The position numbers and the translations under genes are program-made. Shown in pieces: positions 34,161 to 62,372 of a stretch of 64,000 nucleotides of DNA. The notes beneath the pieces are model-generated. The model did no database searches. It was not told the DNA's origin and worked only from the letters and a program-made list of their open reading frames with translations. Position 1 is the stretch's first letter. Every line of letters starts with the position of its first letter. This stretch comes from Rhodobacteraceae bacterium KLH11 (GTDB lineage Bacteria > Pseudomonadota > Alphaproteobacteria > Rhodobacterales > Rhodobacteraceae), in contig DS999531.1 in the NCBI GenBank assembly GCA_000158135.1, positions 2,969,259 through 3,033,258 on the forward strand, written 5' to 3'.

Positions 34161-35387
34161 TCACAAAACGCTGTCAAGCGCCTCCAAAAGCTGATCAATT
34201 TCCTGTTGCGAGGTGTAGTGTGTGAAACTCAGCCGTAACACACCCTGCTCCGCATCAACGCCCATCGCGGTCAGCGGGCGAACAGCGTAAAAATCGCCGC
34301 CACCTGCCATGACGCCGTGTTGCGCCAGTTCAGCCGCCACAGGCTCGGCCGCACGATTGAGGGCCAGAGCAACCGTCGGGGCCCGGCGGTTGGCGTCAGA
34401 GGGGCCCAGCAGGCGCAGCGTGTTGCGATCCTTGACCGCATCCAGCAAGGGCTGAAGCAGCGCAACCTCATGCCCGCGCATCAGATCATGCACAAAGCCT
34501 CCCTGCGCGGACGCGCCGGTTTCGGGCCCGCCATGATGTACACAAAGCAATTCCACATAATCCGCCAGACCCGCACAGGCAGCGATCTGTGCATGATCGG
34601 GACCTGCCGGGGTGAAACGTTTATACAGCGAGTCGCCATTGAAATGATGGCCCTGATTGGGCAGCATCTCACCCAGACTGCGCCGAATGACCATGCAGCC
34701 CTGATGCGGACCGTAGGTCTTGTAGGCTGAAAACAGGTAGATATCCGGCCCCAGATCACCAATATTCGGCAACCCGTGCGGCGCGTATGAGACACCGTCA
34801 ACGCAAACAAACGCACCCGCCGCATGCGCGATGGCGGTGATCTCGGTCACGGGATTGATCTCACCCACCACGTTCGAGCAATGCGGAAAACAGACCAGAC
34901 GCACCTTTTCATCCAGCAGGTTCTCAAGATCCTGCGGGTTCAGCGATCCGCTGTCCGGATCGATCTGCCATTCCCGTACTTCAATTCCATCGTCTGCAAG
35001 ACGGCGCCATGGCCCTGAATTGGCTTCGTGATCCTGATTGGTCACCACAATCGCATCGCCGGGCCGCATCCATTGACGGAAGGCCTGCGCCAGAACATAG
35101 GTGTTCTGCGTGGTCGAGGGGCCAAAGCTCAGCTCATCCGTCTCAACGCCCATGATCGCAGCCAGCCGGGTGCGCGCCTCATCCATTTCTTCACCGGCCA
35201 GACGGCTGGCATCATAAGGCGCATAGGGTTGCACCTTTCGCTGGGTATAAAAGCGCGTCAACCTGTCGATCACGGGTTTGCACGTATACGAGCCACCCGC
35301 ATTTTCAAAAAAGGCCTGCCCCTGCAGGCTGGGTTCGGCAAAAGCCGGGAACTGTGCCCGAACGAAATCAATATCGAGGGTGCCCAT
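34161..35387 (-). CDS. Cysteine desulfurase-like aminotransferase class V protein
   Basis: A 408-residue PLP protein of aminotransferase class V, of the TIGR01976 (cysteine desulfurase-like, VC1184) type. The PLP lysine is Lys223 in FSAYKTYGPHQG, and the DHEANSGPW motif is near residues 119-126. GGGAGAGA precedes the ATG at 35387; a longer open frame upstream does not look coding. It is distinct from IscS/SufS and has no suf or isc genes around it, so its substrate is open. Confidence 0.85.
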   Translation of the reverse strand: MGTLDIDFVRAQFPAFAEPSLQGQAFFENAGGSYTCKPVIDRLTRFYTQRKVQPYAPYDASRLAGEEMDEARTRLAAIMGVETDELSFGPSTTQNTYVLAQAFRQWMRPGDAIVVTNQDHEANSGPWRRLADDGIEVREWQIDPDSGSLNPQDLENLLDEKVRLVCFPHCSNVVGEINPVTEITAIAHAAGAFVCVDGVSYAPHGLPNIGDLGPDIYLFSAYKTYGPHQGCMVIRRSLGEMLPNQGHHFNGDSLYKRFTPAGPDHAQIAACAGLADYVELLCVHHGGPETGASAQGGFVHDLMRGHEVALLQPLLDAVKDRNTLRLLGPSDANRRAPTVALALNRAAEPVAAELAQHGVMAGGGDFYAVRPLTAMGVDAEQGVLRLSFTHYTSQQEIDQLLEALDSVL

Positions 35388-48603: not shown

Positions 48604-49923
48604 ATGGAACCCACCTCTTCTCTGCTTGATAGCGCTTTTTGGATCACCTCCGGCTCTATCCTTCTTCTGCTCGTATTGTCGGGCTTTTTCTCTGGCTCGG
48701 AAACGGCGCTGACCGCATCGTCACGCGGCAAGCTGAGGGCACAGGCCGACAAAGGCTCGCACGGGGCGCAGAAAGCGCTGGATATAACGGATGATAACGA
48801 GCGTCTGATCGGCTCGGTCCTGCTGGGCAACAATCTGGTCAATATCCTTGCCGCCTCGCTGGCGACTGCGCTGTTTACGCGGCTGTTCGGCGAAAGCGGC
48901 GTGGCGCTGGCAACACTGGTGATGACTCTGCTGGTGCTGATCTTTGCCGAAGTGCTGCCCAAAACCTATGCGATCACCAATGCCGAAAAAGCCGCAGCTC
49001 TGGTCGCGCCGGTGATCAGCGTGGTCGTCACCGTGTTCTCGCCGATGGTTGCCGCCGTCCGGCTGCTGGTGCGCGGCGTGCTGCGCCTGTTCGGCGTGCA
49101 GATCGACCCGGACAGCAACATTCTGGCCGTGCGCGAGGAAATCGCAGGCGCGCTGCAGTTGGGCCATTCCGAAGGCGTGGTCGAAAAAGAGGATCGCGAT
49201 CGGATCCTGGGTGCGCTGGATCTGGGGGATCGCGCGGTGGAAGAGATCATGCTTCACCGCTCGAATATCGAGATGATCGATGCCGATGCAGAGCCCGAGG
49301 CGATCCTAAAGCAATGTCTGGAAAGCCCGCATACCCGCCTGCCGGTCTATCGGGACGAGCAGGAGAATATCGTGGGGGTCGTCCATGCCAAGGACCTGTT
49401 TCGCGCCATGTACGCGCAGGCTGGTGGCGCGAATGGTGATGCCGAACGCCTCAAGAACTTTGACATCGCAAAGGTCGCAAATGATCCCTATTTCGTGCCC
49501 GAAACCACCACGCTGGATGATCAGATGCGCGAGTTTCTTCGGATGCACAGCCATTTCGCGCTGGTCGTGGACGAGTATGGGTCGCTACGCGGGCTGATCA
49601 CGCTTGAGGATATTCTGGAAGAGATCGTGGGCGAAATTGCCGACGAATTCGACATAGAAGAAGAGGTGCCCGTCACCCGGACCGACGATGGCCAGTACCT
49701 TGTCGAAGGTGCCATGACCATCCGCGACGCCAATCGCGCGCTCGACTGGTCGCTGCCGGATGAAGAGGCCAACACGCTCGCCGGGCTGGTGATTCACGAG
49801 GCGCAGATGATCCCGATTGTTGGTCAGGTTTTTTCGTTCCACGGGTTCCGGTTCGAGGTCACGGCCCGTGAAGGGAACCGGATCACCGCCCTGAAGGTCC
49901 GCCCGCTGCTGCAACTAAACTAA
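48604..49923 (+). CDS. HlyC/CorC family transporter (DUF21-CBS)
   Basis: A 439-residue protein with an N-terminal DUF21 (CNNM) membrane domain (three or four helices, about 15-160), a CBS pair (about 220-350, LPVYRDEQENIVGVVHAKD) and a C-terminal CorC/HlyC domain (about 360-435). The family is linked to magnesium or cobalt efflux. CAGGA precedes the ATG. Transport direction and ion are not shown by sequence alone. Confidence 0.9.
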   Translation: MEPTSSLLDSAFWITSGSILLLLVLSGFFSGSETALTASSRGKLRAQADKGSHGAQKALDITDDNERLIGSVLLGNNLVNILAASLATALFTRLFGESGVALATLVMTLLVLIFAEVLPKTYAITNAEKAAALVAPVISVVVTVFSPMVAAVRLLVRGVLRLFGVQIDPDSNILAVREEIAGALQLGHSEGVVEKEDRDRILGALDLGDRAVEEIMLHRSNIEMIDADAEPEAILKQCLESPHTRLPVYRDEQENIVGVVHAKDLFRAMYAQAGGANGDAERLKNFDIAKVANDPYFVPETTTLDDQMREFLRMHSHFALVVDEYGSLRGLITLEDILEEIVGEIADEFDIEEEVPVTRTDDGQYLVEGAMTIRDANRALDWSLPDEEANTLAGLVIHEAQMIPIVGQVFSFHGFRFEVTAREGNRITALKVRPLLQLN

Positions 49924-61094: not shown

Positions 61095-61676
61095 ATGGAT
61101 GGTGACGATTTAGGGCGGTTGATCTACCTTGGCCTGCTGGGCGGGGCGTTGTTGATGTGGGCCCTGACACATAATCGCCAGTCGCTGGGTAAAACCATGC
61201 AACAGGCCGCCGCCTGGGTGTTTATCTTTATCGGTGTTATCGCCGTTGTCGGCTTGTGGGATGACATCCGCTCGACCGTTGGGCCAACTCCGCAATTGAC
61301 CGTAAGCGATCACCGGATCGAAGTCCCCCTGTCGTTCGATGGCCACTATTATCTGCCCATGCTGGTGAACGGTCAGGCGGTGACATTTCTGGTGGATACC
61401 GGGGCCAGCCAGATTGTCCTGAGCACGCAGGACGCCGAGCGTGTCGGGATCGATACCGATCAACTGAACTATCTGGGCCGCGCCTCAACCGCGAATGGGG
61501 TGGTGCGCACAGCTCCGGTGCGGCTCGACAGCCTCGCGCTGGGGCCGATCACGGATCGTAATGTTCCGGCCTCGATCAATGAAGGTGAGCTGCACCAGTC
61601 ATTGCTTGGGATGGAGTATCTGCATCGCTTTTCAAATATCCAGTTCGCCAATGGCCGGTTGATCCTGTCCCGATAA
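61095..61676 (+). CDS. Membrane-anchored retropepsin-like aspartic protease (TIGR02281)
   Basis: A 193-residue protein with two N-terminal helices (about 8-24 and 38-54) and a clan AA aspartic protease domain. The active-site triplet is Asp101-Thr-Gly in LVDTGAS. One domain is present, so a homodimer is expected. It fits the TIGR02281 family, seen widely in alphaproteobacteria, whose target is unknown. Its stop lies 7 bases before the palindrome in front of the next gene. Confidence 0.85.
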   Translation: MDGDDLGRLIYLGLLGGALLMWALTHNRQSLGKTMQQAAAWVFIFIGVIAVVGLWDDIRSTVGPTPQLTVSDHRIEVPLSFDGHYYLPMLVNGQAVTFLVDTGASQIVLSTQDAERVGIDTDQLNYLGRASTANGVVRTAPVRLDSLALGPITDRNVPASINEGELHQSLLGMEYLHRFSNIQFANGRLILSR

Positions 61677-61682
61677 GGGCAC

Positions 61683-61725
61683 TTCTCAATTGAGAACGTA
61701 ACAAGAACATGCTAGCATGACTGCA
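61683..61725 (+). promoter_or_regulatory. LexA-type SOS promoter of the ImuA-like gene
   Basis: TTGAGA (61690-61695) and TAGCAT (61713-61718) are spaced by 17 bases. GAAC-N7-GAAC, the alphaproteobacterial LexA box, occupies 61694-61708, overlapping the end of the -35 and lying in the spacer. Two further perfect palindromes flank it: TTCTCAATTGAGAA (61683-61696) and CATGCTAGCATG (61708-61719). The expected transcript start falls at or next to the ATG at 61725, which suggests a leaderless message. Confidence 0.7.
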
Positions 61726-62372
61726 TGTCGTTACACCTTCTGCACAACAAACCCGCGCGCGCTGCGCCGGGGGTGAAACTGCATCCGCAGATCACCCTGC
61801 AACTGGCCCGCGTGCATGAGGTCTGCGGCCCGGCGCGGCGTAGCTTTGCCATGTGGCTGGCCAGCCAGATGCAGGGGCCGGTGCTGTGGATTTCCCCCAC
61901 CTGGGAGGTGGGGCAATTACACCCTGCCGGAATGCTGCCCTTTGCCGACCCGTCCCGGTTTCTGCTGGTCCGCCCCCAGAAAGCCGAAGACCTGCTCTGG
62001 TGTATGGAAGAAGCTTTGCGCAGCGGCGCAGCGCCGCTTGTCATTGGGGATCTGCCCGGCCCGCCGGGGCTGACCCCGGTGCGGCGGATGCATCTGGCCG
62101 CTGAACAGGGGGGCATATCGGGGCAGGCTCCGCTGGGGGTGCTGCTCACCCCGGATGAGGGCGGGGCACAAGGGATCGAGACACGATGGCATATGACCCC
62201 GTCCTGTCACGAGACAGCCGGCAGTTGGGTCCTGACCCGCCGCCGCGCCCGCGCCCTGCCCCCGGCCAGTTGGCAGGTTACGCAGGCCTCTCTCCATTCC
62301 GGCCTGCAGCTCAGGCAGATCGGCACGGACGATGTTCCGGTCACCCCTTCATCAGGATCACACAACTTGTGA
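61725..62372 (+). CDS. ImuA-like (RecA-related) protein, solo
   Basis: A 215-residue protein that resembles ImuA, the SOS mutagenesis factor of the imuA-imuB-dnaE2 cassette; the segment [20 protein letters not shown] with [13 protein letters not shown] before it is the recognisable part. It has no clear Walker A, like other ImuA proteins. No imuB or dnaE2 follows; the next gene is a YceI protein. The SOS-type promoter in front supports a DNA-damage role. Similarity is moderate and judged by eye. Confidence 0.65.

Follow-up and report, generated by a model that had tools for sequence, protein, structure and literature searches.

A standalone imuA gene behind a LexA-type box in Ruegeria and its putative place in a dispersed SOS mutasome

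An operon of imuA with imuB is typical, if not universal, and the imuA-imuB-dnaE2 cassette of Caulobacter is an example of the full set. The window analyzed here, which is the whole stretch of 64,000 nucleotides and belongs to a genome placed within Ruegeria (label G000), contains an imuA-like gene for which this operon is absent. Which protein is encoded by such a solo gene, how is it likely to be controlled, and with which partners would it act? The features of the locus are given below by window position.

61683-61696, no strand assigned: palindrome TTCTCAATTGAGAA, incidental (perfect in 1/30 Ruegeria loci)
61690-61695, forward strand: -35 element TTGAGA from the sequence, sharing the first bases of the LexA box (TTGAGAAC invariant in 30/30 Ruegeria loci)
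61694-61708, forward strand: LexA-type box GAAC-GTAACAA-GAAC, that is GAAC-N7-GAAC, or GTTC-N7-GTTC on the other strand (sequence; 78/80 relatives)
61708-61719, no strand assigned: palindrome CATGCTAGCATG, incidental (perfect in 1/30 Ruegeria loci)
61710-61718, forward strand: extended -10 element TG-C-TAGCAT, with TAGCAT at 61713-61718, 6 nt ahead of the ATG (sequence; TANNNT layout in 68/80)
61725-62372, forward strand: solo imuA, 215 aa, predicted RecA-core fold without the Walker A lysine (ORF, NCBIfam, alignment, predicted fold)
61827-61844, forward strand: putative remnant of the P-loop found in RecA, reading GPARRS and lacking an ATPase's GK[T/S] (sequence and alignment of 34 solo ImuA)

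The original prediction had placed GAAC-N7-GAAC between TTGAGA and TAGCAT at a spacing of 17 bases, and this arrangement was confirmed in the sequence, with the imuA ATG at 61725. The box match alone proves little, because the window holds four such matches against 1.96 +/- 1.26 expected for eight fixed bases, a count which is not beyond chance; the other three are at 2742-2756, 35349-35363 and 49444-49458. Genome-wide, 181 matches were counted against 97 for the reversed control pattern. It is conservation among relatives, and not the match itself, by which the box at 61694-61708 is judged real. A perfect box with TTGAGAAC identical throughout lies upstream of solo imuA in all 30 Ruegeria loci compared, which are the 30 best-scoring of those found, and of the 80 loci in a wider set (the best 80 of 95 relatives found in genome_contigs), 78 carry a box no more than 200 nt ahead of the gene. 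We regard the element, which has the pattern of the alphaproteobacterial LexA regulon, as a putative LexA-type operator within the imuA promoter. The full layout of box, 4 nt, TANNNT, 6 to 8 nt and ATG/GTG is kept in 68/80 relatives, and this kept layout, with the -10 element 6 to 8 nt before the start codon, supports a leaderless start; the transcript is probably leaderless and would begin at or beside the ATG, where the start had been predicted. The two flanking palindromes reported earlier are indeed perfect in the window, but they are not conserved, being perfect only in the window genome among the 30 Ruegeria loci, and they were therefore taken as incidental and ruled out as operators. 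The gene preceding imuA (61095-61676) encodes a retropepsin-like aspartyl protease (Pfam 2.2e-27) and is in place in most Ruegeria loci.

The identity of the protein was approached by family models and by fold. The Pfam search of the window protein gave no match and phmmer against PDB sequences returned nothing useful, and for this reason a fold search was needed. The AlphaFold2 model (pLDDT 85.5, pTM 0.82) was searched with Foldseek and VIA-align, and RecA came out on top with a Z of about 18 and 174-194 residues aligned. Against the NCBIfam ImuA model NF033429 the window protein scores 30.9 bits (2.3e-7), which does not reach the curated cut-off of 150 bits; this cut-off is an NCBI annotation rule and not a biological feature, and the short ImuA next to imuB in a complete cassette also scores only 31.0 bits. 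The same model was matched by 34/34 solo sequences (E <= 0.01; best 8.9e-12), while the RecA model matched one of them, weakly. By profile and predicted fold the ORF at 61725-62372 is a divergent ImuA and a relative of RecA, and the relationship claimed at the outset is borne out. GPARRS, which was compared with the P-loop motif of RecA, forms residues 35-40, of which G35 and R38 are invariant in the 34 sequences; judged by this segment, solo ImuA is not expected to hydrolyse ATP. Loss of Walker A has been described for the ImuA1/ImuA2 groups (PMC12926913).

It had also been claimed that neither imuB nor dnaE2 is adjacent to the gene, that it may be a diverged single-gene branch, and that the full genome should be searched for both partners. 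The first statement holds widely, as no imuB or dnaE2 match was found near solo imuA in 80/80 solo loci (about 10 kb on each side in 69 and less in the rest). The search of the full genome found both partners: a single ImuB and a single DnaE2 are adjacent at C6:791825-796677, with GAAC-N7-GAAC at C6:791796. Along the contig they are 2.2 Mb from solo imuA; in the opposite direction the distance would be about 0.9 Mb, provided that the 3.12-Mb contig closes into a circle. Since the partners are 2.2 Mb away, the phrase "without imuB/dnaE2" applies to the neighbourhood only, and a lone gene without a mutasome is ruled out. The idea of a diverged single-gene branch survives in part: the gene is standalone and its relatives form one clade in the ImuA tree, but action as a single gene is not supported, since imuB-dnaE2 with a LexA box of its own is present in the same genome and ImuA matches are absent from all 11 sampled family genomes that lack an ImuB match. 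By eye, the gene upstream of this imuB looks like a transporter ATPase rather than an imuA. An ORF resembling an IS110-type transposase, also judged by eye, lies about 3 kb ahead of the imuB-dnaE2 pair (locus L069, 1685-2617).

The lineages of these separated genes were examined in a family sample of 140 genomes from 139 genera, with thresholds of E <= 1e-30 for ImuB and E <= 1e-4 for ImuA. Three arrangements were distinguished, and the ImuB type labels in this sample come from alignment extent and identity and are in part tree-confirmed. In type A, ImuB is immediately preceded by a short ImuA, and DnaE2 is full (of 36 non-Ruegeria loci, 33 had a recognised ImuA and 35 a DnaE2). In type C, a longer ImuA precedes ImuB, again with a full DnaE2 (of 20 loci, 14 had a recognised ImuA and 19 a DnaE2). 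In type B, whose ImuB is about 50% identical to that of the window genome, ImuA stands beside ImuB in 0/36 loci, a DnaE2 match occurs in the fetched DNA in 2/36, and the ImuA is the unlinked solo form. Solo ImuA was found in 57 of the 58 genomes labelled type B, the exception being G190, which has a type-B ImuB and a standalone OB gene (see below) and no solo ImuA match. The 64 solo-ImuA genomes, a count that takes in G136 (46%) and G116 (two fragments on two contigs), include seven that are not type B: the window genome G000, G083, G086, G092, G094, G136 and G142.

All trees were quick ones with SH-aLRT support only. In the ImuA tree, made without 6/20 type-C and 3/36 non-Ruegeria type-A loci in which no ImuA ORF was recognised, all 34 solo rows fall into a single clade (SH-aLRT 99) that is distinct from the short group and the C group. 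The ImuB tree was made with 8 of the 17 type-B Ruegeria rows and without the duplicates L258/L259; in it, type B is one clade (99) and the window ImuB falls inside type A (support 83). Ruegeria rows are spread through type A, where the starred branches force at least four label changes. The DnaE2 tree used 8 of the 9 type-B loci requested, as L275 contained no core; these eight rows, which carry a split DnaE2, form one clade (100), and the window DnaE2 is among type A. ImuB at 60% identity or more was found on 15 plasmid records, and solo-type ImuA on none (36 records matched, at identity <= 45%). The window ImuA is thus placed in a chromosomal solo lineage, and its ImuB and DnaE2 in a different cassette lineage which also occurs on plasmids. 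A plasmid cassette imuA-imuB-dnaE2 of Dinoroseobacter shibae has been published (PMC9426580); the 126-kb plasmid NC_009957.1 of this species carries a complete cassette with a short linked ImuA, and its ImuB (L252) is among type A in the tree. Genome G090, which is taken as that genome, differs in having solo ImuA, a type-B ImuB and a standalone OB gene as well.

The partner of solo ImuA in most Ruegeria has a further peculiarity. In 41 of 54 Ruegeria genomes the match to a DnaE2 query of 1130 residues stops between its residues 984 and 1001, in ORFs that are 972-1066 aa long (mostly 974-976), and the missing C-terminal OB domain is a separate small gene elsewhere in the same 41 genomes. The two kinds of gene are exemplified by the following loci of Ruegeria relatives.

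Locus L260, 1835-4753: dnaE2-core of about 976 aa
Locus L264, 1619-1999: separate OB-domain gene with a LexA-type box

By Pfam, the PHP, polymerase and HHH domains are in the core and the OB fold is in the small protein. On the NCBI error-prone polymerase model, which has 1047 positions, the G098 core spans 6-939 and the small G006 protein 942-1037. One core was examined for the aspartate motifs, which we take to be catalytic, and they are present. Core and OB gene are far apart on one contig (for example at 1.17 and 2.23 Mb of C1 in G205), so the split is not an assembly break. A GTTC-N7-GTTC box lies close upstream of the OB gene in 59/60 loci (Ruegeria 30/30; family set 29/30; non-Ruegeria 28/29, the miss being L324), with ATG/GTG 1-3 nt after the box in 57 of the 59 boxed loci. 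Before the core gene a near-box, GAAC-N7-GAAT, is conserved in 7/8 loci; the remaining one is L275, where no start of the gene was located. The standalone OB gene is present in 57/140 family genomes. Small-ORF matches were left out of this count for G068, G144, G148 and G199, where the contig was short, the match lay close to the beginning of a contig or the score pointed to the other lineage, and for G143, where identity was 37%; G136 (ORF of 400 aa) was counted. Solo ImuA accompanies the OB gene in 56 of the 57 genomes and is found in 8 of the other 83, a correlation of which shared descent explains much. A type-B ImuB without an OB match occurs in G099 and G119.

Comparison within Ruegeria gives a view of how the window genome may have come to its mixed set. 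The ImuB is of type B in 41 of the 54 genomes and of type A in 13, and both together at E <= 1e-30 were seen in none. All 41 type-B genomes have solo ImuA and the standalone OB gene. Twelve of the 13 type-A genomes have no standalone OB gene, which would be expected if it is superfluous beside a full DnaE2, and solo ImuA is retained in 11 of the 13. Ten of these thirteen have no short imuA, and all ten keep solo ImuA; its losses amount to 2/3 with a linked short ImuA against 0/10 without. The chance of this pattern is 3/78 by a hand count in which the genomes are not independent, and independent events are few.

One genome appears to be caught between the two states. G009 (loci L269 1836-3479, L336 6780-7468 and L337 1277-1639) has broken relics of dnaE2-core and of the type-B imuB at the ancestral place, and it also has a complete type-A cassette, an intact solo imuA and an intact standalone OB gene with its LexA-type box; from this gene content it may be described as a transitional genome in mid-replacement. 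In the ten type-A genomes that lack a short imuA, the leader of imuB still resembles the 3' end of that gene, with best matches of 73-82% identity across 72-100 nt, and in the three complete Ruegeria cassettes the same stretch, including the LexA-type box, is imuA coding sequence. This leader, that of the window genome included, is probably the 3' stump of a lost short imuA. It could alternatively be conserved promoter sequence, as it is short, spans the LexA box and mostly includes up to 20 nt of imuB. In the three complete type-A cassettes the boxes before imuB, inside the 3' coding end of short imuA, are at L066 5840-5865, L067 5679-5704 and L068 5893-5907, and G013 and G016 have two overlapping boxes there. 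No other perfect box was found in these three fetched loci, so none stands before the short imuA.

The RecA-core fold without an ATPase motif, together with an ImuB partner that comes from another lineage, would also suit a protein which no longer serves in the mutasome and acts solely on RecA, such as a modulator of RecA filaments that is induced by damage. We consider this unlikely, because ImuA follows ImuB across the family, being matched in 110 of the 129 genomes with ImuB (19/129 had no match at E <= 1e-4) and in 0/11 without it at the same threshold, and because solo ImuA was lost in Ruegeria only where another ImuA adjoins imuB, that is in G013 and G016 (2/54).

SulA, a relative of ImuA, is encoded in E. 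coli by a lone gene under LexA control, and the LexA-type box, standalone position and RecA-like fold seen here would suit a SulA-like inhibitor of cell division as well. A SulA model was matched at 2.7e-6 by the linked short ImuA of G013. The window protein, however, has no match to the SulA models of Pfam and NCBIfam, the SulA model was matched weakly by 1/34 solo sequences (0.0068) against 34/34 for ImuA, and the 0/11 count in genomes without ImuB speaks against this reading too; a SulA-like identity is very unlikely and was rejected on the model matches.

Selection on the retained gene was compared by pN/pS, whose median for solo imuA is 0.22 in six type-A genomes (15 pairs) and 0.21 in 21 type-B genomes (210 pairs), with a somewhat higher value of 0.28 for G002 and G036 against the type-B genomes. 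Solo imuA is under purifying selection in these type-A genomes also. A leftover on its way to loss after replacement of its partner genes, as the broken dnaE2 and imuB relics beside a complete new cassette in G009 might suggest, was rejected as extremely improbable, since the ORF is intact, promoter and box are conserved, and pN/pS is close to the value found where the old partners are intact.

The gene is very probably the ImuA subunit of an SOS-induced translesion polymerase complex of the ImuA-ImuB-DnaE2 type, encoded apart from its partners. For the wider arrangement we infer a dispersed SOS mutasome whose ImuA was retained when the polymerase module was replaced. LexA would cover the core promoter at each locus and keep the promoters shut, and DNA damage would release all of them together. 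Solo ImuA may then bind ImuB, and ImuB would direct DnaE2 to the clamp and to the lesion, which would be bypassed in an error-prone manner. In most Ruegeria the partner would be a different ImuB with a DnaE2 made from two genes, one for the catalytic core and one, behind a LexA-type box of its own, for the OB domain. Solo imuA may have survived the exchange of the polymerase module because the incoming one no longer had an ImuA. That solo ImuA serves an ImuB of another lineage in the window genome is suggested by its retention, by selection and by the shared LexA-type boxes. On a broader scale, we think it rather likely that many Roseobacteraceae have a dispersed SOS mutasome in which DnaE2 is made of two polypeptides, a core ending just before the OB fold and a LexA-controlled OB subunit, and in which standalone ImuA is the common adaptor, kept when the core, OB and ImuB set is replaced by a plasmid-type ImuB-DnaE2 as in the window genome. 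The chain from LexA release through ImuA/ImuB to DnaE2 is outlined for other bacteria in PMC6511836 and PMC12926913.

Several known systems share parts of this arrangement. With the imuA-imuB-dnaE2 mutagenic cassette (PMC6511836) it has in common a RecA-like subunit without Walker A, its association with ImuB and DnaE2, and LexA-type boxes; the difference is that the window imuA stands alone, 2.2 Mb along the contig from an imuB-dnaE2 of different lineage. The split mycobacterial cassette, imuA'-imuB and dnaE2, treated in the same source, likewise has mutasome genes at more than one locus under LexA, but there dnaE2 is separate, whereas here imuA is separate and dnaE2 itself is in two in most congeners. 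The iPolY / ImuB-C / DnaE2 variants with standalone ImuB-C (PMC12926913) share the use of a mutasome protein domain as its own gene; in the present case it is the OB domain of DnaE2 that stands apart, and ImuA is retained. As split cassettes are already known in mycobacteria, the standalone imuA is to be seen as a variant of a known arrangement, and an unlinked imuA may have been mentioned earlier in Rhodobacterales. For a split DnaE2 or a standalone DnaE2-OB no earlier description was found in the literature searched, including the accessible parts of PMC3919608, PMC6511836, PMC12926913, PMC6473078 and PMC9426580.

The mutasome is usually seen as one cassette. In the genomes compared here its parts lie far from one another, have LexA-type boxes of their own and have been exchanged between lineages. 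Dispersal of the cassette was reportedly treated by Erill in 2006. Such scattered and exchanged parts provide natural tests of which mutasome parts must match. Should the split of DnaE2 prove real, an error-prone polymerase could be gated through the induction of a small OB protein, and the function of the OB domain, which is hard to dissect in one large chain, would become accessible by gene removal. This would bear on how marine bacteria tune damage-induced mutation.

GANTC sequences, presumably possible CcrM methylation sites, were also recorded upstream of some of these genes. Within 120 nt upstream there is none before the window imuA and none before the OB gene of L264, and GACTC was seen by eye at many other OB loci. 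Upstream of imuB in the window genome (L069, start 5826) they are at -94, -61 and -56, and upstream of the dnaE2-core of L260 (start 1835) at -42 and -8.
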